In this document: piece by piece, positions 1 to 29,963 of the stretch | Position numbering within the stretch: the first letter of the stretch is position 1 | How the letters are laid out: each line of letters opens with the position of its first letter | Source: a virus | Strand: one strand, 5' to 3' | DNA length: 29,963 bases | IMG/VR virus record: IMGVR_UViG_3300027759_000033 | Coordinates: 1-29,963 of that record | Notes under the pieces: model-generated | What the model was told of the DNA's origin: nothing | Seen by the model: the letters and a program-made list of their open reading frames with translations, nothing else | Databases searched by the model: none | Program-made: the position numbers and the translations under genes

Positions 1-102
1 GATTCTATGCAACGTCGTAATACCAATACCGAAATGCTGCAAGGTTTCTTTTACCGTGTGATTGCGCGCGTACGTTCGCACCTCTCTGTCGGTGTAGCTC
101 AT
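1..102 (-). CDS. Partial copy: N-terminus of the multi-HTH DNA-binding protein
   Basis: This is the first 34 codons of the gene that is complete at 28898-29938, seen again because the window overlaps itself. Its ATG (102-100) overlaps the TGA of the upstream gene (101-99) as ATGA, which places the multi-HTH protein directly downstream of the primase and zinc-finger genes in the same operon. It is not a separate gene. Confidence 0.9.
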   Translation of the reverse strand, partial: MSYTDREVRTYARNHTVKETLQHFGIGITTLHRI

Positions 103-127
103 GGCAGCGCCTGTATAAGCGTTTTGA
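1..127. repeat. Left copy of 127-bp terminal overlap (assembly circle)
   Basis: Bases 1-127 are identical to 29837-29963. The segment lies inside coding sequence: the first 34 codons of the multi-HTH gene (reading down from 102) and the last codons of the zinc-finger gene ending at 99. A repeat inside two overlapping genes, with a length equal to the assembler k-mer 127, is best explained as the overlap left when a circular or circularly permuted genome is assembled. The unique genome is then 29,836 bp. Confidence 0.9.
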
Positions 128-4925: not shown

Positions 4926-5158
4926 TGCAGCACCGAGGCTGGCATAAGAGGTGACAAATCCAGCCCTGGCAATACTTCTGCCTCTCGGCTCTTGCGCTCG
5001 GCTCGGTACACATTTTCAACAGCCAGGCTATATACGCTTTTTTCTGCCTGCCGCAATCGCATTGCATCGATAATACGAGCGTTTAACGGCTGCCCTGTGA
5101 GTGTGCGTTTGGCTAGTTCCTTGTGTGCTTCGAGTAGGTGTAATTCGTAGCTGTTCAT
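4922..5158 (-). CDS. Hypothetical early protein, helical
   Basis: A 78-aa charged helical protein (MNSYELHLLEAHKELAKRT...), function unknown. The frame is open back to 5215, but the start at 5158 is chosen because AGAAAGG lies 9 nt upstream, inside a duplicated leader that serves the neighbouring gene start at 5401 in the same way. It begins MN-x-YE like that neighbour because the leader duplication includes the first codons. Confidence 0.7.
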   Translation of the reverse strand: MNSYELHLLEAHKELAKRTLTGQPLNARIIDAMRLRQAEKSVYSLAVENVYRAERKSREAEVLPGLDLSPLMPASVLQ

Positions 5159-5220
5159 GCTGTGCTGCCTTTCTGTAGTGCCTGCCGAGTGTCTGGCTCG
5201 GCAGGCTGTTTGCATTGTTT
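5151..5220 (-). repeat. Duplicated leader, copy 1 (hairpin + RBS + start codon)
   Basis: A 70-bp segment repeated at 5394-5463 with 67 of 70 identical bases (48 in a row, 5161-5208). In transcription order it holds the end of the upstream gene, a 10-bp perfect hairpin (GCCTGCCGAG, 7-nt loop, CTCGGCAGGC; 5206-5180), the RBS AGAAAGG and the ATG at 5158. Confidence 0.9.
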
Positions 5221-5401
5221 AAGCGTATTGCCAAGACACGTTATATAGCAAATGTTGCAATTCCAACTGCAATGCAATCATTTTTTGTGATAGCTTATTT
5301 GCTATTTCTTGATTCTGTTGCATATTTATTTCTGTCAAAAACCAATTTATACGATGTTGCAAAACGATAATTTTGAATCCAGTTGATTCGTATCTGTTCA
5401 T
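5219..5401 (-). CDS. Hypothetical small early protein
   Basis: A 60-aa protein, mostly helical with many Gln and Leu residues, possibly a short coiled coil. The start at 5401 has AGAAAGG 9 nt upstream within the second copy of the duplicated leader. Base composition is more AT-rich than its neighbours. It lies between the two leader copies, so it may have arrived with, or been created by, the duplication. No function can be assigned. Confidence 0.55.
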   Translation of the reverse strand: MNRYESTGFKIIVLQHRINWFLTEINMQQNQEIANKLSQKMIALQLELQHLLYNVSWQYA

Positions 5402-5463
5402 GGTGTGCTGCCTTTCTGTAGTGCCTGCCGAGTGTCTGGCTCGGCAGGCTGCTTGCGTTGTTT
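5394..5463 (-). repeat. Duplicated leader, copy 2 (hairpin + RBS + start codon)
   Basis: The second copy of the 5151-5220 segment, offset by 243 bp, with three mismatches. It carries the same hairpin (5449-5440 / 5432-5423) and AGAAAGG upstream of the ATG at 5401. It fills the gap between the stop at 5465 and that start. Confidence 0.9.
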
Positions 5464-5814: not shown

Positions 5815-5844
5815 ATAATAGCACAGGTAAATACATATTGTCAA
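5815..5844 (-). promoter_or_regulatory. Early promoter (sigma70-type)
   Basis: On the minus strand TTGACA (5844-5839) is followed after 18 nt by TATTAT (5820-5815), close to the sigma70 consensus. The expected start is near 5808, about 44 nt before the first early ATG. It lies just downstream of the late terminator. TACATGTA, a perfect palindrome, overlaps the upstream flank (5852-5845). The block TATTGACA is shared with the late promoter at 26293-26266, so both may be read by the same host holoenzyme. Confidence 0.8.
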
Positions 5845-5866
5845 TACATGTAACGAAATCAAATAA

Positions 5867-9670: not shown

Positions 9671-11487
9671 TAGATTGCCCCTGATAATATCTGCATAGCT
9701 CGCATGTCCTGCATAATGCTGCCTTCGTTTTGTACTGTAGCATACGAGGCATTTAAGTTGTAATTGTAGCTGGTTACCGCTGCCGCGTTGCCTACTGCCA
9801 TGCTGCTTGCATCGGCAACAAGCCCGCTGCTGTTTATAATCCCTTGTGCCATGCCTTGCGAAATTGGGGCGCCTACCATGTCTGCAAATAGCTTGCTAGG
9901 TGATTGAATAATACCCGCGTCGCGCGCTGCTTGCAATGCATCGGCAATAACTCGATTAATAGCATCTTTCACAAATTTAATGCCCAAATCAATACCGCCT
10001 GCAATGCCCTTGACCAAATCAGTGCCTAATGATTTTGCCTCGTCCATTTTGTTTTTTAGCGCTGTAGATATGTAATCAACGCCTACCTGTACTGCTGCTT
10101 TTATGTCTGTCCACACGGTTTCAATTGTGGTTTTTAATGCATTCCAGGCGCCTGTTACATCGCCTTTCAGCAGTAACGAAAATACGTTCATTATGCCCGT
10201 TACAAAATCAATTGCAATCGTTGCATTTGCTATGAGCTGGTCAAATACTACCTTGATATACGGCCAAAGAAATGTAAACGCGTCTACGAGCAAACCCCAA
10301 ACAATGGTTAGATTATTTATTTCGTACACTAAAATATCGCGTATTGTGGTTGCCAGTTGCCCAAAGAATGTACCGAGCAATGCAATATATGCCTGGGCTG
10401 TAGGTGATGCCAAATATTCGGTAATTGCGCTGCCAGCTTGTACCATTGCAGGAACAAAAACGGCAACAAACCCCATAACCGCGTCTGTCAACGGCTGCAG
10501 AAATATTTGTACCTGTGCAAAGCCCGCGCTTAGCTGTGCAAGCACTCCAGGCACTGCAGCAATTGCATCTTTGATAGTAGTGAATATATCAGCCGTCGTA
10601 CCGCTTTCGTTAACCGAGGTAATCCAGCCTGATAATGCTTCGGTGCCAGATTTTACCGCTGGTACAATCGTGTCTTGCATAAAGGTACCAAATTGCATAA
10701 GCACAGGCATAAGTGCATCGCCTAATCCCTGCTGTATGTCTGCAAATTGGGCTTTTAGTACTTCCTGCTGTCCTGCATACGTGCCTACCGCTGCCGCTGC
10801 CGAGCCGCCAAACTCTTTATTGAGCTCGGCAATAATTACCTGTTGCGCGCCTGCAACGTCGCCTGTTTCTACCAGGCTTTTGATAAGTTTCTTTTGGTCT
10901 TCGCTAAAGGTAACCCCTACACGAGAAAGCGCACCAATGCCCGCTATAGGGTCGTTCAGCGCCTTGCCTACCTGTATTGAGGTGCTTTGCAGGTCTTGCC
11001 CTAATGCCTGGCTTACATCGAGAATTGCGGCTGTTGCATCGCCAAAGTTTGTACCTTTAATCTGGGTAAATGTTGCTAGCACATTTTCAGCGCCCAAAAT
11101 AGCATCATCACTAAATATGCTTTTACCGCTGGCAGCGCTTAACCCTTCTGCCATATCGCCTAATTGCGTTGCCGTAAAGCCTGCTGCCGCGCCCGTGCTT
11201 CTTACTACTGCCTCGGTTTGCGCAAGGGCACTTTGCCAGCTTGATGATTCTTCGATTGCACCGGTAAAGAAATCACCGAGCTTCGCAAGCCCTTGCGTAG
11301 CCAGGTTAGTAAGAGCACCGCCGATTGCCATAAAAGCGCCCTGGGCAATGCCATTAAAGGCGCTCATTTTGGTGCTTACGGCTTCGCTTTGGTTGCCCAG
11401 TGCACTCATGTTTTTATCGATTGTGTTGGTAACGTTTGTAACGTCATCTTCTCCAACAAATCGAATAATTACAGTTTCTTGTGTCAT
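9670..11487 (-). CDS. Tape measure protein
   Basis: A 605-aa protein, the longest tail gene. It has long helical stretches, Ala/Gly-rich hydrophobic segments (GAFMAIGGALTNLATQG; FVAVFVPAMVQAGSAI) and the typical N-terminal tape-measure region (QSALAQTEAVVRSTGAAAGFTATQLGDMAEGLS). It sets tail length; at about 0.15 nm per residue the tail would be near 90 nm. It is preceded by the frameshifted chaperone gene (ATGA overlap with the frameshift product) and followed by Dit, the standard siphovirus order. Confidence 0.9.
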   Translation of the reverse strand: MTQETVIIRFVGEDDVTNVTNTIDKNMSALGNQSEAVSTKMSAFNGIAQGAFMAIGGALTNLATQGLAKLGDFFTGAIEESSSWQSALAQTEAVVRSTGAAAGFTATQLGDMAEGLSAASGKSIFSDDAILGAENVLATFTQIKGTNFGDATAAILDVSQALGQDLQSTSIQVGKALNDPIAGIGALSRVGVTFSEDQKKLIKSLVETGDVAGAQQVIIAELNKEFGGSAAAAVGTYAGQQEVLKAQFADIQQGLGDALMPVLMQFGTFMQDTIVPAVKSGTEALSGWITSVNESGTTADIFTTIKDAIAAVPGVLAQLSAGFAQVQIFLQPLTDAVMGFVAVFVPAMVQAGSAITEYLASPTAQAYIALLGTFFGQLATTIRDILVYEINNLTIVWGLLVDAFTFLWPYIKVVFDQLIANATIAIDFVTGIMNVFSLLLKGDVTGAWNALKTTIETVWTDIKAAVQVGVDYISTALKNKMDEAKSLGTDLVKGIAGGIDLGIKFVKDAINRVIADALQAARDAGIIQSPSKLFADMVGAPISQGMAQGIINSSGLVADASSMAVGNAAAVTSYNYNLNASYATVQNEGSIMQDMRAMQILSGAI

Positions 11488-11878
11488 AGGGTAACCCTCT
11501 TTTTCAGCCTGCGCTCTATGGCTATCATATGCAAATGCTGTGCTATGGTGTCGTAATCAGGCAGCTGGCTGGGTGTACAGTGGTACAAATCCCTACAGGC
11601 AAGCAGCTCCAAATACTCTAATGGCATTGGTGCTGCTGTCCATAGATGCGCAATCAGCTGCCTTTCAAGTTTGGGTCTTGAAACTGCAATCTAGCAAGAA
11701 TCTTTTCAACAATTGCATTAAAGTGTTCGAACGGCAAATCACTTGCTGGGCTGCCGTCTTCAGTGCTTACACACTTTTCAATAATCGGCAGCATCTCGTG
11801 TATTTCGCCGCTCTTTGCACTCTTCTGCAGCTGTGCAACATCTCGTATAGAAAGTTTGGTTTTGTTAATGGTGTACAT
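11484..11878 (-). CDS. Tail assembly chaperone, -1 frameshift product (G-T type)
   Basis: The 74-codon gene 11878-11654 contains the heptamer C CCA AAC in frame (11675-11669), a canonical XXXYYYZ slippery site. A -1 shift there joins residue 70 to a 61-codon open frame (LERQLIAHLWTAAPM...) that has no start of its own and ends at TGA 11486-11484. That TGA overlaps the tape-measure ATG as ATGA. The 131-aa fusion is the lambda gpG-T equivalent that chaperones the tape measure. This explains the otherwise gene-free 165 bp. Frameshift efficiency and a downstream stimulator are not visible directly. Confidence 0.8.
11654..11878 (-). CDS. Tail assembly chaperone, short form (G type)
   Basis: A 74-aa acidic-basic helical protein between the tail tube gene and the tape measure, the standard position of the gpG-like chaperone. 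Unshifted translation stops at TGA 11656-11654, five codons after the slippery heptamer. The short form is expected in excess over the frameshifted form and coats the tape measure during tail assembly. Sequence similarity to named families is not obvious; the call rests on position, size and the frameshift signal. Confidence 0.78.
   Translation of the reverse strand: MYTINKTKLSIRDVAQLQKSAKSGEIHEMLPIIEKCVSTEDGSPASDLPFEHFNAIVEKILARLQFQDPNLKGS
11669..11675 (-). other. -1 ribosomal frameshift site (CCCAAAC)
   Basis: The slippery heptamer C_CCA_AAC is in the reading frame of the chaperone gene. Slipping by -1 re-pairs both tRNAs with CCC and AAA and opens the 61-codon extension that ends at the tape-measure start. 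Confidence 0.8.
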
Positions 11879-13426: not shown

Positions 13427-13632
13427 TACACGCCTCGCTTGGTTTTGGGTTTTGGTGCTGCCGCTGGTGTTGCCGTAGGTGCTGCAGCTTCTGGCTCTAC
13501 TGCCTCGGCACGTCCTGTGTTCAGCAGGTGTTGTGCCTCGCTTGCTGGCAGCTCGATTACCGAGCCGCCAGCATAGCTACGCATTGAGCCATTAACGATG
13601 CAGCTTAGGGCATTTTTAAGCCTAATTTGCAT
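13426..13632 (-). CDS. Small structural protein after the capsid gene
   Basis: A 68-aa protein. Residues 20-45 (YAGGSVIELPASEAQHLLNTGRAEAVE) match the motif of small phage proteins often found after the capsid gene (G-x-V-x-x-L-P-x-x-x-A-x-x-L-x-x-x-G-x-A). The tail is Ala/Pro rich and then basic (PKPKTKRGV). It may be a head accessory or decoration-like protein. AAGGGA lies 6 nt before the start. Confidence 0.65.
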   Translation of the reverse strand: MQIRLKNALSCIVNGSMRSYAGGSVIELPASEAQHLLNTGRAEAVEPEAAAPTATPAAAPKPKTKRGV

Positions 13633-13642
13633 CTGCTATCCC

Positions 13643-14692
13643 TTACGGATTCACGCCGTATACGAATGCTTCAGGCTGTACAACATCCCCGCCCCAACGT
13701 ACGGTACAGAAAATTGCCGTTTGGTAATTTGGCTGGTATACGTATGGATTGCGGCTTACTTCCAAACCGAGGTTTTCGACAAACGCGTAATATCCCCAAT
13801 TGCCGAAAATGATAGGCTTGTTGCCCGTACCGAGCACTGCAATCTTATCTGTTACTGCAATAGGCTTGCCGTACAGGTTATCAATTGTGCCCATTGGTGT
13901 AGGTTGGAAGCTGTAGAAATTGCCTTGCAGCTGTCGAATTGCGCCCAGGGTGCTGTTTTGCATTACCCAGCCCGTTGCGTTGCCGTCATCAACGTACCAT
14001 GCTGGCAGCTTGTATACGATGTTATGAATGTCGCTCTGGTCAAGCCCGCTTGCGCTTGCCAGGGTTTCGCTTACGGTTGCACGTGCAAGAACGCCGTATG
14101 GTTGTGCCGAGCCCGTGCCGTTAATCATGTAATCGTTCAAATGACGTGCGTATGCCCGCCCGATTTCACGAGTAAGAAAGCCTTCCAAATCCATTGCATT
14201 GTCACGCAACAGCTGGTTAGAAATCTTCATTGCAAGGGAAGCCGTATAAACCGTAATGGCAGACTGGCTAAAGGTTGGCTCGTCAAAATTTGCGGCTGCA
14301 GATTCTGCAACAAACGCGAAATTGCTTTTGCCGTTCTGGTCTGCAATGTCGAAAATCTGTCGGTCTGTGGTATAGCGTTGAATGCCGAGCTTTGCACCAA
14401 TCCAGTTCTGGTCGCGCTTATCAATAACCTGGGTATAGAAATCGTGAGGTACGGTATAGCCGCCGTTTGCGCCCGTGCCTTCTACCAAAGTTGCTTTGGC
14501 TGCAATCTCATCACCGGTTTTCAGGTAATGTACGATTGCTTCCGATTGTTCACCGCTAAACCCTCGGCTGGTAAGCTTCTTGGTTGCTGGTGCCTGTCGG
14601 GTGCTGTCCACAACGCCGCCGCCTGCAACAGGCGTGCCCGCGGATTCCTCGAGGATTTCGAGCATTGCCGCTTTCATTTCGTTCTTGTCCAT
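13643..14692 (-). CDS. Major capsid protein from internal start (HK97 fold)
   Basis: The C-terminal part of the protease-capsid frame has its own ribosome-binding site: AGAAGG, then 7 nt, then ATG at 14692 (codon 168 of the long frame). This would give a 349-aa capsid precursor on its own. The N-terminal 60-100 residues are charged and helical, like the HK97 delta/scaffold domain. The rest (VPHDFYTQVIDKRDQNWIGAKLG..., WVMQNSTLGAIRQLQG, GKPIAVTD, GNWGYYAFVENLGLEVSRNPY) is the HK97 capsid pattern. Whether fused, free or both forms are made cannot be told from sequence. Confidence 0.65.
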   Translation of the reverse strand: MDKNEMKAAMLEILEESAGTPVAGGGVVDSTRQAPATKKLTSRGFSGEQSEAIVHYLKTGDEIAAKATLVEGTGANGGYTVPHDFYTQVIDKRDQNWIGAKLGIQRYTTDRQIFDIADQNGKSNFAFVAESAAANFDEPTFSQSAITVYTASLAMKISNQLLRDNAMDLEGFLTREIGRAYARHLNDYMINGTGSAQPYGVLARATVSETLASASGLDQSDIHNIVYKLPAWYVDDGNATGWVMQNSTLGAIRQLQGNFYSFQPTPMGTIDNLYGKPIAVTDKIAVLGTGNKPIIFGNWGYYAFVENLGLEVSRNPYVYQPNYQTAIFCTVRWGGDVVQPEAFVYGVNP

Positions 14693-15193
14693 TGGTTTAC
14701 CTTCTGTTGGTGATTGTTCGATATATGCATAAGCGTATGCAGAATTAGCAGCGTTGCCGCTCTTTGCTAACCTCTTTACATCGCTGGTTGCCGTGGTACG
14801 TGGCTCGGCAGGCGTCGGTGTTAGGCTTATTTCGCCTACTACCCAGCGTTTGAGCTCTCCTGATTCTCTTACTACCAAATGCGATAATGCACCGGTCGAC
14901 AAACCGAGCGCGCCGCGCTTTACCAGTTGCATTACTTGTTTGGCGTATTTGTCGCGCCTGTCTAATTCGATTTCAACGTCGATGCCGTCGTCATCAGGTG
15001 CCCAGCTTTTTACTACACCAATTTGGCGCCGCAAATCACCCAGGCTGTGGTCGTAGTACACAGGCATGCCGATAAAAGAGCGCGTTTCGCCGAGGTCTGT
15101 TTTTGGCGTGAATGTATCGCCTTGCAAATCACGCCCGCCCCAAATAATGCCCTTGCCTTTTAATGTGTATTCGCCTACTGCCTTTACTGTCAT
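13643..15193 (-). CDS. Prohead protease - major capsid fusion
   Basis: A 516-aa single frame. Residues 1-135 are an HK97-type (S78) prohead protease with H49 in VYYDH, S99 in LGLSTGA and E121 in VVGEISLTP. Residues from about 168 are the scaffold-like domain and HK97-fold capsid. The protease would cut itself free and trim the delta domain. The start at 15193 overlaps the Dps-like gene stop (TAATG), which rules out the longer frame open to 15355. The internal RBS at codon 168 suggests extra capsid without protease is also made. Confidence 0.85.
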   Translation of the reverse strand: MTVKAVGEYTLKGKGIIWGGRDLQGDTFTPKTDLGETRSFIGMPVYYDHSLGDLRRQIGVVKSWAPDDDGIDVEIELDRRDKYAKQVMQLVKRGALGLSTGALSHLVVRESGELKRWVVGEISLTPTPAEPRTTATSDVKRLAKSGNAANSAYAYAYIEQSPTEGKPMDKNEMKAAMLEILEESAGTPVAGGGVVDSTRQAPATKKLTSRGFSGEQSEAIVHYLKTGDEIAAKATLVEGTGANGGYTVPHDFYTQVIDKRDQNWIGAKLGIQRYTTDRQIFDIADQNGKSNFAFVAESAAANFDEPTFSQSAITVYTASLAMKISNQLLRDNAMDLEGFLTREIGRAYARHLNDYMINGTGSAQPYGVLARATVSETLASASGLDQSDIHNIVYKLPAWYVDDGNATGWVMQNSTLGAIRQLQGNFYSFQPTPMGTIDNLYGKPIAVTDKIAVLGTGNKPIIFGNWGYYAFVENLGLEVSRNPYVYQPNYQTAIFCTVRWGGDVVQPEAFVYGVNP

Positions 15194-15960
15194 TACTTGC
15201 CCCGCAATACATACAGAAGCTGGCTTGCCAGTTCTTTTACGTGCTTTGGTTGTTCCATTGCAGCAGGCATTGATTCTGTCATCATGTCCATTTCGGCAGG
15301 CTCTGGCAGTTCTGCAAGCTCTGGTGTTGGTGTCTGAATTGCTCGTAACATCCAACGTAATTTCTGGTGATAGCCTAAGCGGTCTTGCAGAAAGTTTTGT
15401 ACACCATATTCAGCTGCAATGCCTGCAAAGTAGATTCCGCCTTGCAGCAAATCACACATGCGCATGTTATCAAGCGTAATGCTTGCAAGCAGGGCAGGTA
15501 GTGGTGCTTCCTCGGTCAGCATGTCGGCTGGCTGGTATGCAATTGCCTGGTAAATAGTGGCAGGTGCCTTAAATCCCAAAGCTCGCAAATACTCGGCTGT
15601 AGGGTCAATTGCCTCTTCGAGCGCTTCGTACATATCATGAAAAAATGCATGATATTGCGGAAAGTCTTCACCTTCCAGATTCCAATGTGCTGCGTGTGAT
15701 TTGTATTTGAGGCAAATGGTTTCACCGAGGATTTCGCGCAATTGCCCTGGCAGGTCTGCAGCCTTTGCACTGCGTACCGCGTCGGTTTCTGCTACTCGGC
15801 TGTTTACGTCTTCCATGTCTGTCATATCGTCACCCAAATCAGCAAACATGCTCTTCATTGCCTCGGCATGTGCTGCCGTTGCCTGGGCATGCATCATTAC
15901 TGCCTGCCGTGCTGCTTTAATCATTACCATGTCACTTGCACTGTGTCGGCTTCCTGCCAT
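15193..15960 (-). CDS. Dps-like ferritin within the head module
   Basis: A 255-aa protein. Residues 70-215 are a Dps/ferritin-like four-helix bundle. The ferroxidase ligands follow the canonical spacing: H92 (AHWN), H104, D119 and E123, the same +12, +15, +4 spacing as bacterial Dps. There is an N-terminal helical extension of about 70 residues and an acidic Pro/Met-rich C-terminal tail. The Dps family binds DNA and oxidises ferrous iron, protecting DNA from damage. Here it is coupled to the prohead protease gene, so it may be packaged or sit on the capsid. RBS GAGGTG lies 5 nt upstream. Confidence 0.85.
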   Translation of the reverse strand: MAGSRHSASDMVMIKAARQAVMMHAQATAAHAEAMKSMFADLGDDMTDMEDVNSRVAETDAVRSAKAADLPGQLREILGETICLKYKSHAAHWNLEGEDFPQYHAFFHDMYEALEEAIDPTAEYLRALGFKAPATIYQAIAYQPADMLTEEAPLPALLASITLDNMRMCDLLQGGIYFAGIAAEYGVQNFLQDRLGYHQKLRWMLRAIQTPTPELAELPEPAEMDMMTESMPAAMEQPKHVKELASQLLYVLRGK

Positions 15961-19730: not shown

Positions 19731-20936
19731 TTATATGAAATCGTACAATACTTGCCCGCTTGCAAGCATTTCTACAGCACCTGAAACCGCGTCTACCATG
19801 TCGTCATGTTGCCCGTGTGGAAATGCTAGGCACTCATCAATAAACTGTGCTGTCCAATCCCCGCGAACAATTCGCAACATGCCTTGCTCGGCTCTTACTG
19901 CCCAGGGCATAGCCCGCTGCATTTTGTCACGTGTTACCACATAACCTTGTAACGATACGTTTACCAGTTCAGGCATTCGGCGTATGTCTTGCAGCGCGCC
20001 TAAGCCTGCTTGCGCTTGCTCTATCCCTTGCATAGTATCGTATTGCTCATTTTTCATCGTGTCTACCATGATTTTGCGTACGTCTGGAAATTCTGCTTTT
20101 ATCCTGATTCCGTCTGCTATGTATAGGTTGCCTTGCTCATCGAGTGCACAGCGTACGCTCGCTGTATAGTCTGCTGTTTCTCGTATGCTTGTGGCAGTAT
20201 CCCAATACCGAAACCATGATAAACCATCAGGCGCTCGGTCAACAATAGTAAACCACTGCCGCCGAAATAGAGCGCCTGCCATGTCGACAAATTCGCCTTC
20301 TACTTCCTGCCGAAATTGTTCGCTGGTGTAGGATTTTTTGAGCGTTTCAAGAAACGAGCCGGGTAGAAAAACATTATCAGCCGTTTTACTGTGTATGATT
20401 TGATAATCTGCATCGCCTGATGTCCATAACTCGTATATCCAATCACGCCCGCGCGGTGTTGTGGTAACCCATGCCCTGGCAGGCTCTTCACGTAACGTTG
20501 CAATAGCAATAGTCCAGGTGTTAATTGGTACTAATGCTGCTTCGTCTACCCATAGCCAGCTTAGGTTAGCACCGCGTAGCCGTTCTGGGTTTTCTGCCGA
20601 GCGTAGCAAAATAGTACGATTGCCATGCAGCCTGATTGTGCCTGTACTGATATTTTCTTGTACCAGTATTTTTGCCTTGCGCGCAATGTCTAAAAGCATC
20701 TTGCGCGCGCCGTCTCGTAACATGGCATTTGTAGGCGCAATAATCATGCCTGTACTGCCTGCCGGTTGCCGTAGGCACTCGATTACACCAGCCCGCGTTT
20801 TGCCGCTGCCGCGCCCGCCGATAAACGCGCGAAATCGTGCATTACTCTGGAAAAATCTTAGTTGTGGCTCGGTCGATTGCGTCTGCTTCAATAAACGCAC
20901 TGGGTTGCTGTTCTGCGAATCTGTGTACTGGCTCAT
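19731..20936 (-). CDS. terL: Terminase large subunit
   Basis: A 401-aa packaging motor. Walker A is GGRGSGKT (40-47) and Walker B is LSWLWVDEAA with D131/E132; a TTTPRG coupling motif lies at 158-163. The RNase H-like nuclease has D246 (YWDTA), E306 and the HDDMVDA motif (D378, D379, D382). It cuts and pumps phage DNA into proheads. The start at 20936 has GGA 8 nt upstream and overlaps TerS by 95 nt, unusually long for this genome. The length is close to the short end for the family. Confidence 0.95.
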   Translation of the reverse strand: MSQYTDSQNSNPVRLLKQTQSTEPQLRFFQSNARFRAFIGGRGSGKTRAGVIECLRQPAGSTGMIIAPTNAMLRDGARKMLLDIARKAKILVQENISTGTIRLHGNRTILLRSAENPERLRGANLSWLWVDEAALVPINTWTIAIATLREEPARAWVTTTPRGRDWIYELWTSGDADYQIIHSKTADNVFLPGSFLETLKKSYTSEQFRQEVEGEFVDMAGALFRRQWFTIVDRAPDGLSWFRYWDTATSIRETADYTASVRCALDEQGNLYIADGIRIKAEFPDVRKIMVDTMKNEQYDTMQGIEQAQAGLGALQDIRRMPELVNVSLQGYVVTRDKMQRAMPWAVRAEQGMLRIVRGDWTAQFIDECLAFPHGQHDDMVDAVSGAVEMLASGQVLYDFI

Positions 20937-21477
20937 TGCCTATTTCCACAATAAAATCATTAGCCTGTTGGTTTGCGGGTGCTTCGTATTTTTCACGATA
21001 CTTTTCAGGCTTCAAACCCTTAAGCAAAAACATTGCAAGCAAATCCGATTTGCGCGCGCGTTCTGCAACATCCATTTCGAGCCGCTCGGCTGCCTCATCT
21101 ATTGCCTCGTGCCATTGCTCGCGAACGTCTGGGCGCTCGTTGTATGCCTTGCGTGCTGTCTTACGATTAATCCCTACATACTCGGCTGCCGCTGTCACAT
21201 TGCCCCAAAGGCTCAAATGCTTGATAAATACAGGTAGCCAGGCTTCAACGTCTAAATTTGTTGTGCGTGCCTCGCGCCCGTCGCTGTATTTTAAAATAAT
21301 CGTATCTGGTCGAACATATGCTTCGCTTGGTCGTGGCTTTACTTTGGGTGCATGCATTGGAGGTCTGCCGCGCGGTCGTGCCTGCCGCATCGGCATTTCA
21401 GGTTTTGTTTTTGGGCGCCCTGGCTTGCGCTTTACTTTACCGTGTAACGGTAGCATGTCTTCTGGCAGTTCACTCAT
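20842..21477 (-). CDS. terS: Terminase small subunit with AT-hooks
   Basis: A 211-aa DNA-binding packaging protein. The N-terminal 55 residues are basic and contain two AT-hook motifs, KPGRPK (18-23) and RPRGRPP (34-40). A HTH region follows (WGNVTAAAEYVGINRKTARKAYNERPDVREQWHEA) and then the typical LLKGLKPEKYREKY segment. Its last 31 codons overlap the start of TerL. AT-hooks bind AT-rich minor grooves and may replace or assist the usual HTH in choosing the packaging site. Confidence 0.85.
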   Translation of the reverse strand: MSELPEDMLPLHGKVKRKPGRPKTKPEMPMRQARPRGRPPMHAPKVKPRPSEAYVRPDTIILKYSDGREARTTNLDVEAWLPVFIKHLSLWGNVTAAAEYVGINRKTARKAYNERPDVREQWHEAIDEAAERLEMDVAERARKSDLLAMFLLKGLKPEKYREKYEAPANQQANDFIVEIGNEPVHRFAEQQPSAFIEADAIDRATTKIFPE

Positions 21478-23354: not shown

Positions 23355-23767
23355 TCGTCTATCTCTTTCTCATCTGATTCGAGCTCTTCGCCCTGGTAAT
23401 AGAACGGCATTTTCAAGCCCTTTACCCAGGTTGTTTCATTTGCTCGTAAGTGTGCAAGATTGTACAGCAAATCGGTATAGGGCTGCTGGGTATCATGAGC
23501 AAATTTTATGCACATGTCTAGCCAGTAATCAAAATCAATATTCTGCCGCCTGCTTTTGAGCTCTATCTGTAGCTTTTTGTCTACTACCATTGCCGCAATA
23601 AAGCGTAGTGTGTACCGAGATGCCTTTGTACGCCTTGCATAGATTTGCACGTTTACTGGCTGGTTTGCTGTTGGTTTAATCTCTACCCATTCGCTTTGAT
23701 TTGCCCAGCGTCTATCTACCAGTATTCCATTGCCCGCGTATATTTCGCCTTTAAACCAGCCTGGCAT
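23351..23767 (-). CDS. Hypothetical protein
   Basis: A 138-aa protein of unknown function. It is basic and beta-rich in the first half (WVEIKPTANQPVNVQIYARRTKASRYTLRF), then helical, and ends in a very acidic tail (EELESDEKEIDE). It is coupled to the six-repeat HTH gene by TAATG and to the lysozyme-like gene by ATGA. The direct link to the HTH-repeat gene makes it a candidate partner of that protein. Confidence 0.65.
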   Translation of the reverse strand: MPGWFKGEIYAGNGILVDRRWANQSEWVEIKPTANQPVNVQIYARRTKASRYTLRFIAAMVVDKKLQIELKSRRQNIDFDYWLDMCIKFAHDTQQPYTDLLYNLAHLRANETTWVKGLKMPFYYQGEELESDEKEIDE

Positions 23768-24984
23768 TACTTGCCGCCTTTCTTGTATGGCACTGCTACT
23801 GCCTTGTATGTGTAGCCCTTGCGCTTAAGGTACCTGCGTAATTGATTATCTGTACAGCCGATTACGTGCCGAGCCTGTTGAATCGTTCGCGCTGCATACC
23901 AGTTTGCATGGTGATTAAAATCTAAATCGGTTTCTATCGTTTGCGGTTTGATGTTGTGCTTGTATGTCCAGCCGCGTTTTCGCAAAAAATGAATAACTTG
24001 ATACCGAGTCTGGCAGAGCTCATCAGTTAGCTGTGCAATTGTTCTGCTTGCGTAATAATTTTGCTCTTCTGGCATTTCATATTTTTTGTTACCTCGGTTT
24101 ATTCTGCGTTTATACGGCAGATTACGCACCCGCAAAAAATTGCGGGTTGCGCTTTCGCTTCGCTTCATTGCTCTCATGATTTCTTTGATTGTGCGCTTTG
24201 CATACCAGGCTGCATCTGTCGGCATGTCTGGCAATGCTTTTTTATACATTGGTTTTGTCTGTATGTATGCATAGCCGCGTGATTCGCAAAAATGCCGCGC
24301 TGCCGAGCGGCTTAAATTCATTGCTGCAGTAAGTTGCTTTATTGTTTTGTTTGCATAGAATGCTGCATCGTCTGGAAATCGTGCCGTATATTGTTCTTTC
24401 TTTGGATTTGGTTTGTATGCCCAGCCCCGTCGCCGCAAAAACCGTGCTACTGTCTTTGCATCGATGCCGAGCTCGGCAGCAGCCGCGTTGATTGTTCGCG
24501 CGGCAAACCAGCTTGCATCTTCTGGGTATTTTGCCCGTGGCTTGTTTGTCGGTATTGCAATCAGTTTTTGGTATTGGTAATTATGTGCAGTGCAATGCTT
24601 GTACACCGCGTCGCGGCTGCAGCCCATTTCGGCAGCAATCTGCAATATATTGCGTGATGCATAGTAGGCAGGGTTTTTGCTCCAAACGCGCTCTTTTGCG
24701 GCTGTGTTTACCAGCTTTGGTGCTTGTATCGGCTGGCTTTCGGCACGTGCCGCTAATCGCCTGTAATCGCGTATATCTGCAATGCCCAGGGCAGCAGCCC
24801 CGTTGCTTTTCATGCCGTCAATTTCTTGCACATGATAGGAAATGTCATCTTCTGGCACATTCAGCAATACCGCTTTGTACCAGGGCTCGTATTCCTCGTG
24901 CCGTAACGTTGCTATTACCCTGTCGGTGTAGCGCAAATCATCGCGCCCCGTCAATGATTCCTGCAGCTTTTGGTGCAATCCCAT
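23767..24984 (-). CDS. Six-repeat HTH-like DNA-binding protein
   Basis: A 405-aa basic protein. After about 100 residues of N-terminal domain come six tandem repeats with a period of 50-52 residues. Each begins with a YA-x-[RK]-[TN]-I type signature (residues 108, 160, 210, 261, 311, 363). Each continues as a helix-turn-helix (e.g. AAAELGIDAKTVARFLRRRG) and ends in an aromatic plus basic linker (W/Y-x-YK). The second helix differs strongly between repeats, as expected of recognition helices. The likely role is binding an extended or repeated DNA site. Expressed from the late promoter. The start at 24984 has AGG 6 nt upstream. I know of no named family with this layout. Confidence 0.8.
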   Translation of the reverse strand: MGLHQKLQESLTGRDDLRYTDRVIATLRHEEYEPWYKAVLLNVPEDDISYHVQEIDGMKSNGAAALGIADIRDYRRLAARAESQPIQAPKLVNTAAKERVWSKNPAYYASRNILQIAAEMGCSRDAVYKHCTAHNYQYQKLIAIPTNKPRAKYPEDASWFAARTINAAAAELGIDAKTVARFLRRRGWAYKPNPKKEQYTARFPDDAAFYANKTIKQLTAAMNLSRSAARHFCESRGYAYIQTKPMYKKALPDMPTDAAWYAKRTIKEIMRAMKRSESATRNFLRVRNLPYKRRINRGNKKYEMPEEQNYYASRTIAQLTDELCQTRYQVIHFLRKRGWTYKHNIKPQTIETDLDFNHHANWYAARTIQQARHVIGCTDNQLRRYLKRKGYTYKAVAVPYKKGGK

Positions 24985-26265: not shown

Positions 26266-26293
26266 AGTATAGACCAGATGTACAATCTGTCAA
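26266..26293 (-). promoter_or_regulatory. Late promoter with operator-like inverted repeat
   Basis: On the minus strand TTGACA (26293-26288), a 16-nt spacer and TATACT (26271-26266), placed just after the methyltransferase stop. The spacer and the end of the -35 hold the inverted repeat CAGAT-TGTAC-ATCTG (26275-26289), a likely operator that would block polymerase. Its TGTAC core is the core of the repeats in the putative origin. It shares TATTGACA with the early promoter. Confidence 0.75.
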
Positions 26294-26310
26294 TACGCTG
26301 CATGCAATTG

Positions 26311-27513
26311 TTATAATTCACAATCCCAATGCCCAATGCGCTTGCGTGCAATCTCTACGTATTCCGGCGTGATGTCGATGCCGATGAACTGCATCCCCTC
26401 AATCATCGTCGCACACCCCGTCGAGCCGCTACCCATGAACGGGTCAAGCACAGTGCCGCCCTTTGGCGTGACCAGGCGAATCATGTAGCGCATCAAGGCG
26501 ATAGGCTTCACGGTCGGGTGATGATTGGCGCGTTGCGCCGAAGTTCTGCCGTCACGTCGTTCCCATGAACCACCCGACAATCTTTCGTCGCCTACGTCTA
26601 ATTTGATTTTCTCCACCCCGTCGAGCCCCGCTTCGCGCTCCGACCGCGACGCCTTCGCCGTGTAGAAAAATCGAGAAGCGCCGCCGCTCTGCTCATCCAG
26701 CGCCGCCGCTGCCTCCTCGTCAAGAATGACGTTGGCTGGCCAGCGACCTGATTTATATTCTATAGGATTATTATTTCGTAATGCAGGCAATCCATATTTG
26801 TATTGTCTAATACCATGTTCAATTGATGCTTTTTGATATGAGGCTATTCCCGGGCCGATACCCTTAACCATTTCATCTGTTCCCACTCTGCATCCATCGA
26901 TGTTGAGCCCACCGACTCCCCATTGCGCCACGTTGTTCGCCACCGTGCCCCGTAGCGGCTTGCGTGCCAATATCGCCGGCTCGTGCGCAGGTTTCAGCGC
27001 AGTGCCCCAGCCTTGCCATTCCTTGGCGAGGTCGGTGATTGGATTATTTGACGCTACCTCGTGATAGCCTGCTATTCTTGATTGTTCAATCCATGGTCGT
27101 GTATCGCTGTTTGCCGCCATGGTTCCGCTAGTTTCGGGTCGTGCTTTGTGTCTGATTTTATCCCGCTCCGCTCCCGCCTGTTTGTCAATCGCTTTGCTGA
27201 CGTCGTGCGATTTCGGGAACCCGCTTCCGTAAATCCATTGCAGTTGGTCACGTATCTCAAAGCCTGCGTCCTCAATAGCCACCGCTAATCGGTGATACGT
27301 CCGAGCGCCGCCAAACGCAATAAGGTGCCCGCCTGGCTTCAGCACACGCATGCACTGCTGCCACACGGTCACATCGTATGCTATCCCGCTGTTATCCCAC
27401 GCCTTCCCCATAAATCCAAGTTCGTACGGAGGGTCACACACAATGCTGTCAACGCTGTTATCTTCCATCGTTGCCATAACGTCTCGGCAATCCCCTGTGT
27501 GTAGTGTGTACAT
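26311..27513 (-). CDS. DNA methyltransferase (beta-class N6A/N4C type)
   Basis: A 400-aa enzyme. The catalytic motif DPPY (27-30) comes first and the AdoMet-binding motif FMGSGSTG (359-366) last, the order of beta-class amino-methyltransferases (N6-adenine or N4-cytosine). The middle is the target-recognition region. The gene is GC-richer than its surroundings except for an AT-rich patch at about 26750-26870 inside the recognition region, suggesting domain exchange and recent transfer. The start at 27513 has AAGGGG 6 nt upstream and is preferred to 27555. No restriction enzyme gene is adjacent. It probably protects phage DNA. Confidence 0.88.
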   Translation of the reverse strand: MYTLHTGDCRDVMATMEDNSVDSIVCDPPYELGFMGKAWDNSGIAYDVTVWQQCMRVLKPGGHLIAFGGARTYHRLAVAIEDAGFEIRDQLQWIYGSGFPKSHDVSKAIDKQAGAERDKIRHKARPETSGTMAANSDTRPWIEQSRIAGYHEVASNNPITDLAKEWQGWGTALKPAHEPAILARKPLRGTVANNVAQWGVGGLNIDGCRVGTDEMVKGIGPGIASYQKASIEHGIRQYKYGLPALRNNNPIEYKSGRWPANVILDEEAAAALDEQSGGASRFFYTAKASRSEREAGLDGVEKIKLDVGDERLSGGSWERRDGRTSAQRANHHPTVKPIALMRYMIRLVTPKGGTVLDPFMGSGSTGCATMIEGMQFIGIDITPEYVEIARKRIGHWDCEL

Positions 27514-27554
27514 TGCTTGCCCCTTGCTGTGTGCTGCTTTCCACTGATTGTACA

Positions 27555-27584
27555 TTTCTTTTTCTTTTTTTTCTTTTTGTTTTT
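27555..27584. other. Polypyrimidine/polypurine tract upstream of the methyltransferase
   Basis: A T-rich run on the plus strand (A-rich on the coding strand) with only four interruptions, 42-71 bp upstream of the methyltransferase start. It could act as a bent or UP-like element. No hairpin precedes it, so it is not a clear terminator. Confidence 0.4.
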
Positions 27585-28298: not shown

Positions 28299-28309
28299 GT
28301 GTTATGCAT

Positions 28310-28605
28310 GTGTACTCATGTGTACTACATGTACTACTGTGTACCTGTGTACTCGTGTGTACTTTAGTAAACGTTAGTACACAGGTGTTCTATAAGACCT
28401 GTGTACTCGTTTTACAGCATTCTATAGCCTTATACCTGCATTTAGTACACAGGTACACGTTAATTCACATAGGAAACAAGAAAAGCAGTACACATGCAAC
28501 GCTGTATACCAAGTGCTGGCCAGTGTTTCGCGCGTCACAAAGCAAAATGCCCAGCCTATCGCCTGATATGCTGGGCATGTGTGTACCGGTGTACTCGTGT
28601 GTACT
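28310..28605. repeat. GTGTAC[T/C] iteron array, putative origin/operator
   Basis: Plus-strand GTGTAC[T/C] begins at 28310, 28320, 28339, 28347, 28357, 28401, 28581, 28589 and 28599, with the variant ATGTACT at 28329. Minus-strand copies (plus-strand [A/G]GTACAC) begin at 28376, 28444, 28452 and 28487. The first six sites are 10, 9, 10, 8 and 10 bp apart, close to one helical turn. Sites 28376 and 28401 form an 11-bp perfect inverted repeat (AGTACACAGGT, 10-nt gap, ACCTGTGTACT). The array lies beside replication genes and an AT-rich element, so origin function is the best inference. Confidence 0.75.
28547..28578 (-). terminator. Early-operon terminator
   Basis: A 9-bp perfect stem (ATGCCCAGC / GCTGGGCAT) with a 14-nt loop that can form a further TATC/GATA stem, followed on the minus strand by TTTTGCTTTG. 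It lies 34 bp beyond the stop of the VRR-NUC gene. It sits inside the repeat array, with three GTGTAC sites before it and the rest after it. Confidence 0.75.
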
Positions 28606-28611
28606 GGCTTA

Positions 28612-28908
28612 CTATTGCAATGATTCGAGATAGTCACGCGCTTGCTCGGCTGTATAAATCACGGCAACAGGTGCACCGAGCCAAGCAGCGTGCCATGCCT
28701 GCTGCCGTTCATTGAGCTTGCCTTTGAGGTCTGGATTCTTTACCTCTACAAGGCACGTTATTCCGCGATATCCCACAAGCAAATCAGGTACGCCCGCCCC
28801 TGCATCGTGCAACAACACTACCGAGGCACCGAGAGCCTGCAGGGTGCCAACAATGAGCTTCTGATTTGCGTCTACTCTTCTACGTTGGTATACAAGCTTA
28901 TTTGCCAT
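28612..28908 (-). CDS. VRR-NUC nuclease
   Basis: A 98-aa stand-alone nuclease of the PD-(D/E)xK class. The core is AGAGVPDLLVGYRGITCLVEVKNP, giving the PD motif and ExK (EVK), followed by LNERQQAWHAAW and PVAVIYTAEQARDYL, the standard VRR-NUC layout. Such phage enzymes cut branched DNA or flaps during replication and recombination. It overlaps the multi-HTH gene by 11 nt and is the last early gene before the terminator and the putative origin. Confidence 0.88.
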   Translation of the reverse strand: MANKLVYQRRRVDANQKLIVGTLQALGASVVLLHDAGAGVPDLLVGYRGITCLVEVKNPDLKGKLNERQQAWHAAWLGAPVAVIYTAEQARDYLESLQ

Positions 28909-29938
28909 GCAATGCCTCCAATGCAGCAGGATATTTGCCGCTTTCCTGTAGCCATTGTATGACGGCTGGCTTATAGTGCACTCCTGGCTGCAGTGGTCGA
29001 GGCAATCCCATATAGTACACGCTGCCTGTTACCTGTTTACCAATGAGCTGGGCAATGTGCTGGCTGGTGATATACGAGGCGTTGAAACGGTCAATAATCG
29101 TTTGGTACCAATCTTCGCCAGGCAGCGCGCGTTGCTGTAAACGTGGCACCTGCAACACGAGGTAATCGGCAACGAATGCCCGCAAAAACACGCTGCCGAA
29201 ACCCCAAGCCCTGCCGATATATGCAGCGCGCAAGGCAGGTGCATGCACGCGCGAATAGGTATCGAGCCCGTACGCTTGCAGCTCTAATGCCCCAACAAAA
29301 TCTACTTTGCATTGCTCGTATATCTCTTGTATTTCGGTGTTGCGTTTGTGTAGCATATTGAGCCGCAATGCATTGCCGCTGGCTAGCCAGTTGTATACCT
29401 CGGTTATATCGTACGAACGCCTACCGCTCTCGTGCTGGATTACTGGCAGCCTGTTGTGTGTTACCCAGTGTGAAACGTGCTCGGTATTTACGCCCAAATC
29501 AGCAGCTACCATGCTGCAGGTATAGCCCAAAGCAGAATTATAGGAAATGTTCAACACGCGCCCGCGCTCAAATACTGCCCTGCTTGTGCGCTTTAGCTTT
29601 TTGGCTATTTCGTCAATGTGCATAATGTGCATATTCATGGAAAGATACGTATCATCTTTTTTCGTCCAGGCATACCGAATGCCCTTCAGCTTTAACCGTC
29701 GTAAGCGCGAATAGAGGGCGCTTGCCGTAATGCCGTAATAGGCTGCCAGTAGTGGTACGTTGTTATGAAATTTGCGCATATCTGCTGCCAGTACATCAGT
29801 ATCGAACCAAGGGCGCCGCAAGGTAACTTTTCCAATGATTCTATGCAACGTCGTAATACCAATACCGAAATGCTGCAAGGTTTCTTTTACCGTGTGATTG
29901 CGCGCGTACGTTCGCACCTCTCTGTCGGTGTAGCTCAT
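28898..29938 (-). CDS. Multi-HTH DNA-binding protein (candidate origin binder)
   Basis: A 346-aa protein built from several helix-turn-helix units: residues 5-40 (KETLQHFGIGITTLHRII), 44-86 (LLAAYYGITASALYSRLRRL), a SANT/Myb-like unit at 88-132 (WTKKDDTYLSMNMHIMHIDEIAKKL) and a MerR/excisionase-like unit at 140-186 (CSMVAADLGVNTEHVSHWV..., ITEVYNWLA). A possible fifth unit is at 288-335 (TSQHIAQLIGKQVTG). No catalytic motif is seen. It lies between the primase-helicase genes and the repeat array, so origin binding or replication control is the likeliest role. Its start (ATGA overlap with the previous gene) is seen at 102 in the left overlap copy. Confidence 0.75.
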   Translation of the reverse strand: MSYTDREVRTYARNHTVKETLQHFGIGITTLHRIIGKVTLRRPWFDTDVLAADMRKFHNNVPLLAAYYGITASALYSRLRRLKLKGIRYAWTKKDDTYLSMNMHIMHIDEIAKKLKRTSRAVFERGRVLNISYNSALGYTCSMVAADLGVNTEHVSHWVTHNRLPVIQHESGRRSYDITEVYNWLASGNALRLNMLHKRNTEIQEIYEQCKVDFVGALELQAYGLDTYSRVHAPALRAAYIGRAWGFGSVFLRAFVADYLVLQVPRLQQRALPGEDWYQTIIDRFNASYITSQHIAQLIGKQVTGSVYYMGLPRPLQPGVHYKPAVIQWLQESGKYPAALEALHGK

Positions 29939-29963
29939 GGCAGCGCCTGTATAAGCGTTTTGA
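29837..29963. repeat. Right copy of 127-bp terminal overlap
   Basis: Identical to bases 1-127. It includes the start of the multi-HTH gene (29938) and the last codons of the zinc-finger gene (copy of 99-127). It should be counted once. Confidence 0.9.

Follow-up and report, generated by a model that had tools for sequence, protein, structure and literature searches.

What does a phage gain from a protein made of helix-turn-helix (HTH) units set one behind the other, and how would such a protein meet its DNA? The question is raised by the gene P0001 of the IMG/VR virus record IMGVR_UViG_3300027759_000033, of which positions 1 to 29,963, hereafter the window, were analysed as one stretch of 29,963 nucleotides. 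Because relatives with three, four and six modules exist, P0001 most likely regulates transcription and does so stretched out over a long piece of DNA; for the full reading, in which this string of HTHs binds sequence over an extended site and thereby regulates phage transcription, we estimate a probability of about 0.5. P0001 belongs to a real, well-defined and apparently unnamed family of tandem-HTH phage proteins whose module number is variable. A family of three to six near-regular modules would be a natural series for relating specificity and affinity to module number; it would also let one ask whether HTH strings can be rewired like TALE or zinc-finger arrays, and it gives a way into gene control in the group to which the window phage belongs.

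The tandem-HTH gene and its predicted fold

The coordinates given for P0001 by the original prediction hold, since a complete open reading frame from ATG to stop is found there; the strand is the minus one, the gene running from 24984 to 23767, and the plus-strand reading of 23767-24984 is broken up by stops. The encoded protein of 405 aa carries the signature [YF]A-x-[RK]-[TN]-I six times, beginning at residues 108, 160, 210, 261, 311 and 363, with a spacing of 50-52 residues which is also the length of the modules. The six 44-residue units have a mean pairwise identity of 30% and a mean pairwise BLOSUM62 score of 57.5; in 100 shuffled copies of P0001, each scored at its best phase, the score averages -32 and reaches at most -23.7, which rules out repeats arising by chance. 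This independent test was made because the unit profile, with which all six repeats score an i-E of 4e-20 or better (Table 1), had been trained on P0001 and one relative. Signature positions, spacing and shuffling together confirm the six tandem repeats of about 51 residues that had been predicted.

Table 1. Features of the window discussed in the text, with positions counted from the first letter of the window.
Feature	Position	Strand	Description
Tandem-HTH gene P0001	23767..24984	-	405 aa, net charge +34
N-terminal module (about residues 15-62)	24799..24942	-	alignments; three helices predicted by AF2
HTH repeat 1 (residues 99-142)	24559..24690	-	unit profile i-E 4e-21; AF2
HTH repeat 2 (residues 151-194)	24403..24534	-	unit profile i-E 4e-20; AF2
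HTH repeat 3 (residues 201-244)	24253..24384	-	unit profile i-E 1e-20; AF2
HTH repeat 4 (residues 252-295)	24100..24231	-	unit profile i-E 2e-20; beside repeat 3 in the tree of single modules
HTH repeat 5 (residues 302-345)	23950..24081	-	unit profile i-E 8e-22; AF2
HTH repeat 6 (residues 354-397)	23794..23925	-	unit profile i-E 8e-21; AF2
Near-consensus sigma-70 promoter	26266..26293	-	TTGACA-16-TATACT, 11/12 matches
TGTGTACT array	28309..28605		9 copies, beside an AT-rich stretch
Second multi-HTH protein	28898..29938	-	346 aa, several different HTHs (Fis-like, MerR-like)

The whole chain was modelled with AlphaFold2 (AF2) on a seven-member alignment. The model has three helices in each repeat, with a pLDDT of about 80 within modules, and a second model of two modules, built from 32 paralogous module pairs, reaches 82; the repeats are therefore predicted to fold as separate three-helix HTHs joined by flexible linkers. 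The HTH-like core that had been read in each repeat is borne out in this way, and repeats without separate HTH folds, which would have spoken against it, are not what the models show. Given that pLDDT falls under 50 in several linkers and pTM of the whole chain is 0.23, the model is one of beads on a string in which the relative orientation of the modules is undefined. Helix 3 is strongly basic, with a net charge of about +3 on average, and helix 1 carries about -1.

The first 80 residues or so of P0001, passed over by the original prediction, are probably a seventh HTH module. AF2 places helices at residues 21-28, 34-41 and 45-60 with a three-helix look (pLDDT 57-69), and alignments display here a motif, RDDLRYTD-x-VIATL...YH-x-x-E-x-x-G, that is common to most relatives.

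Foldseek searches with the full P0001 model and with the two-module model gave no match at E 0.001 or better. A structural second look with VIA returned mostly DNA-binding HTHs, with Z up to 4.6 and thus support at the level of the fold only; the matches listed include FapR, Fis, Mos1, DeoR, Mor and homeodomains. Moreover, the generic HTH models ANT, HTH_23 and HTH_28 of Pfam match P0001 above cutoff, and no catalytic or nuclease domain was matched in the protein.

Relatives, module number and divergence

A scan of viral contigs with P0001 found one close relative (48% identity, six repeats), and terminase-based and alignment-based scans raised the total to about 20 loci, on contigs of uncultured phages. 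The search for homologues with other repeat numbers, which had been proposed as a check, thus yielded proteins with three, four and six repeats. Six are found in the window protein, in that of genome G001 (= L002/L003/L015) and in L006, with which the fragment L005 is listed; three in L009 (= L016), L013, L008, L011, L017 and L021; and four in L018, L019, L020, L022, L024, L025, L026 and L027. Nearly all relatives carry the same N-terminal module before their repeats; L028 has four repeats but lacks this module, and L010 has three repeats behind a different N-terminus.

Viral scans seeded with L022 and L010 each returned the seed alone, and a scan of genome contigs with the family found no prophage and no host. 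A tblastn search of P0001 against the phage collection gave no match, nor did an Rfam search; a two-unit consensus searched against phages recovered one weak HTH protein, from a Citrobacter phage. The terminase of the window phage has distant matches only in the phage collection, the best at about 28% identity.

In a tree of single modules, whose resolution is limited by the 44 columns available, the first repeats of three- and six-repeat proteins group together (97/91), as do the third (95/82). Repeat 4 of the six-repeat proteins stands beside the repeat 3 group (90/85), and the placing of repeats 5 and 6 near repeat 2 is less well supported. The six-repeat form would most simply derive from an internal duplication of the three-repeat form, or the reverse would have happened by loss; variants with 3, 4 and 6 modules show that modules were both gained and lost in evolution. 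In L029, where consecutive multi-HTH ORFs are found, one W-Y/W-A type module is placed after other HTHs. Three multi-HTH ORFs of this locus (L029:7013-9809) mix HTH types and two of the three end in a single W-Y/W-A type module, which looks like module shuffling.

Each module keeps its own identity by position across genomes. Comparing every repeat of the window protein with its counterpart in G001 gives identities of 0.48 for helix 3, 0.48 for helix 2 and 0.44 for the helix-1 region, against 0.22, 0.25 and 0.28, respectively, when different repeats are compared. A conserved frame with a variable recognition surface had been supposed by the original prediction. Variability is not concentrated in the recognition helix, because the region-by-region identities do not single out helix 3 either between different repeats or between orthologues, and hypervariability of this helix was rejected.

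Position-specific identity, the occurrence of 3-, 4- and 6-module variants and the grouping of repeats 4-6 with repeats 2-3 all fit a natural modular DNA reader. In such a reader each module would take its own few base pairs and the order of modules would spell a site of 40-60 bp, and duplication, loss and divergence of modules would give phages new specificities. Diverged modules could also bind DNA without sequence choice, and we hold both the reader and this way of changing specificity to be unlikely.

The tandem-HTH protein is among the products of the fastest-diverging syntenic genes, being 48% identical to its counterpart in G001, as compared with 93% for the terminase and above 70% for most syntenic genes. 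Divergence of this kind could come from an arms race, with P0001 as an anti-host or anti-defence protein occupying host DNA or promoters; however, dN/dS is at most about 0.33 in all pairs, with no excess in helix 3, and other small genes of the region diverge equally fast. We regard such a role as very improbable. The gene is under purifying selection, looser than that on the terminase: dN/dS is 0.25-0.33 for the pair G001-L006, where the terminase has about 0.05, and 0.05-0.26 for four other pairs. No positive selection was found over whole genes in these five pairs.

Known multi-HTH proteins and a proposed mode of action

Three-domain tandem-HTH proteins (Cbp1) and multi-HTH regulators of phages (D5) are already known. 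The statement that no named phage family with such a layout was known is not supported: PHROG 323, the D5-like transcriptional regulators, is the best match of P0001 (E 2e-11), and tandem-HTH readers also occur elsewhere, as with Cbp1 (PMC10883916). The alignment joins residues 163-394 of P0001 to positions 23-250 of the 319 of the profile, at a modest 45 bits vs the 243 that D5 itself reaches, and scores of this kind are inflated by queries rich in repeats. PHROG 323 is also the best match in 5 of the 6 relatives scanned, down to 3e-13. When P0001 is compared by hhalign with T5 D5 alone, the probability is 62% over 34 columns, that is, one module; this direct link being weak, we file P0001 as D5-like in layout, with membership unproven.

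T5 D5 and P0001 are both phage proteins of several successive HTHs in which no catalytic domain was matched. D5 (255 aa), however, is made of a few unequal HTH/Myb-like segments (Pfam) and has neither the W/Y-Y-A-x-R-T signature nor the RDDLRYTD module of P0001. According to the annotation of its record, T5 D5 binds DNA and is needed both for DNA replication and for late transcription; the HTH of D5 has recently been proposed to bind retron DNA (PMC13405049, preprint), and in a T5-like virion preparation a homologue of D5 ranks among the most abundant proteins (PMC8624392).

This abundance, together with the D5-like PHROG match, suits a sequence-independent DNA coat, in which the modules of a nucleoid-like protein, plentiful as T5 D5 may be, would bind any double-stranded DNA cooperatively and would protect or organise replicating phage DNA. 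It is also in keeping with the net charge of +34, with the fact that no specific site was found, and with the four-module phage G006, where the gene adjoins those of primase and a Mom-like DNA-modification protein. A pure coat would not need modules that keep their own identity across genomes, and yet helix 3 is 0.48 identical between orthologues and 0.22 between positions; we consider a coat rather unlikely.

For the regulator lying along an extended site, the clearest functional precedent, by analogy, is Cbp1 of Sulfolobales. Its three HTHs, which come from duplication and are joined by short linkers, follow one another in the 5' to 3' direction on the CRISPR repeat, which forms a single long DNA site (PMC10883916). 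The likeness to P0001 concerns the principle of the architecture only, namely tandem HTH domains derived by duplication; Cbp1, unlike P0001, is archaeal, has three modules and binds CRISPR repeats. The NCBIfam model of Cbp1 (NF040595) can be aligned with L018 over three modules (E 1e-3), but its cutoff of 140 bits is far above the 19.0 bits of L018 and the 17.7 bits of L009, and P0001 itself gives no match to it at E 0.1. As a consequence, P0001 is Cbp1-like in its working at most, and it is no Cbp1.

On this analogy P0001 would act through its N-terminal HTH-like module and six three-helix HTH repeats, held together by basic, flexible linkers. Expressed from a host-type sigma-70 promoter, it would set its modules in successive major grooves of one extended site of tens of base pairs, so that affinity and reach would grow with module number; once bound, it would repress early or activate later phage transcription, as the annotation of T5 D5 brings to mind. 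That the protein binds DNA as such is highly probable, and the basic helix 3 of its modules is consistent with binding of double-stranded DNA; sequence specificity, the lie along DNA and the direction of regulation we infer.

Among the best PHROG matches after 323 are phrog_8446 and phrog_7545, HTH modules of phages that are linked to HNH endonucleases; the modules are similar but come in pairs, and those proteins are nuclease-linked, whereas no nuclease domain was matched in P0001. A protein of Bacillus phage SBSphiJ3 annotated as hypothetical (L044:2275-3438) has three tandem HTHs behind an N-terminal part that, from a reading of its sequence, looks nuclease-like. The 'CAP repeat' of PDB 8vd6 has repeated T-x-x-x-IA-x-x-LG HTH-like units as P0001 does, but with a period of 33 residues, and looks like a designed protein; kinship with it was rejected because its E of 5e-9 arises only as the sum of five almost identical units, each worth about 6 bits.

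Genome setting, promoter and short-word array

An exact direct terminal repeat of 127 bp (window 1-127 and 29837-29963) makes it probable that the genome is complete, at about 29.8 kb. All genes with family matches in the window phage lie on the minus strand. Primase/helicase, a small ORF, the 346-aa multi-HTH protein and VRR-NUC come first, up to the array of short words; after the array follow a DNA methyltransferase, small ORFs, the tandem-HTH gene, ORFs of 138 and 122 aa, amidase, the probable terS, terL, and a portal fused to a head-morphogenesis part. The methyltransferase (N6/N4; 26311-27555, minus strand) has no match in G001, G002 or G003.

The place of the tandem-HTH gene before the lysis and packaging genes, part of the original prediction, stands for the window phage; it does not for G006, where the four-module gene stands before a Mom-like protein and primase. 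With neighbouring genes varying from one phage group to another, the position of the gene does not settle whether it takes part in late control.

HTHs are common in the small subunits of terminases. P0001, whose gene precedes the probable terS by a few genes and has the same operon orientation toward terS/terL, might accordingly be thought of as a packaging-site recognition factor aiding the small terminase. This is extremely improbable: a separate terS candidate is present (20842-21477, assigned from position only), and in G006 the gene adjoins primase and not packaging genes.

Expression from a late promoter, which had also been claimed, is unsupported, since a near-consensus sigma-70 promoter of host type, with no late mark, belongs to the operon itself. 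This promoter (26293-26266) precedes both the small ORFs and the tandem-HTH gene, and equivalent promoters are present in G001 and G002; similar to it is the promoter at 5844, which comes after a terminator, at the start of the replication-gene block. The word GTATTGACAnnnTGTA is present at exactly two places of the window, 5832-5847 and 26281-26296 (minus strand), both of them sigma-70 promoters, and an extended GTATTGACAnnnTGTA word is shared by G001 and G002; the word is a possible operator that overlaps the -35 box.

Among repeated or conserved DNA elements, none was found to track the tandem-HTH protein. The window does contain a short word, TGTGTACT, in 13 copies vs 0.95 expected, a number reached in 0 of 100 shuffles, and nine of these form the array of Table 1. 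Its main run has six TGTAC sites at a spacing of 8-10 bp. G001 has an array of the same word at the same place, with a similar run; the word is TGTTTACA/TGTACA in the three-module genome G002, whose run has five sites, and ACGTGTAT in G003 (array loci in relatives: L033:2209-2505, L034:12440-12755 and L035:14391-14735). In all four genomes the array comes directly after the VRR-NUC gene and beside an AT-rich stretch, and it is a candidate origin or operator.

Six sites for six modules in the window, and the similar run in G001 with its six-module protein, invite the idea that P0001 binds this non-random array, one module per roughly 10-bp repeat, and acts there in the firing or control of an origin; the word also diverges alongside both multi-HTH proteins. 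However, five sites face three modules in G002, identical words suit one reader domain better than six diverged ones, and arrays occur in the four genomes with the 346-aa protein, G006 having none. We consider binding of the array by P0001 improbable and have set the array aside as the leading target, because its occurrence follows that of the 346-aa protein and G006 lacks it. The gene of the 346-aa protein lies close to the array, and proteins of this type are encoded in all four array genomes (relatives at 63, 50 and 30% identity); G006, which has terminal repeats and is apparently complete, gave no match to the 346-aa type and no array. It is thus the 346-aa protein that likely reads the array, as initiator or regulator.

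Other elements of these genomes were also noted. A strong hairpin followed by ACAGAAAGG and ATG is duplicated at window 5143-5220 and 5386-5463, in front of neighbouring small genes; G001 and G002 have a hairpin in a comparable position but with a different stem, and another hairpin is found in four-module phages (L041:12526-13136). The head-gene block encodes a Ferritin/Dps-like domain (PF00210, E 2e-13; 15193-15960, minus strand) that is conserved in G001 and G002. Two long open frames of the plus strand, 10103-11494 (463 aa) and 13598-14713 (371 aa), lie antisense to tail and capsid genes and are probably by-products of base composition.
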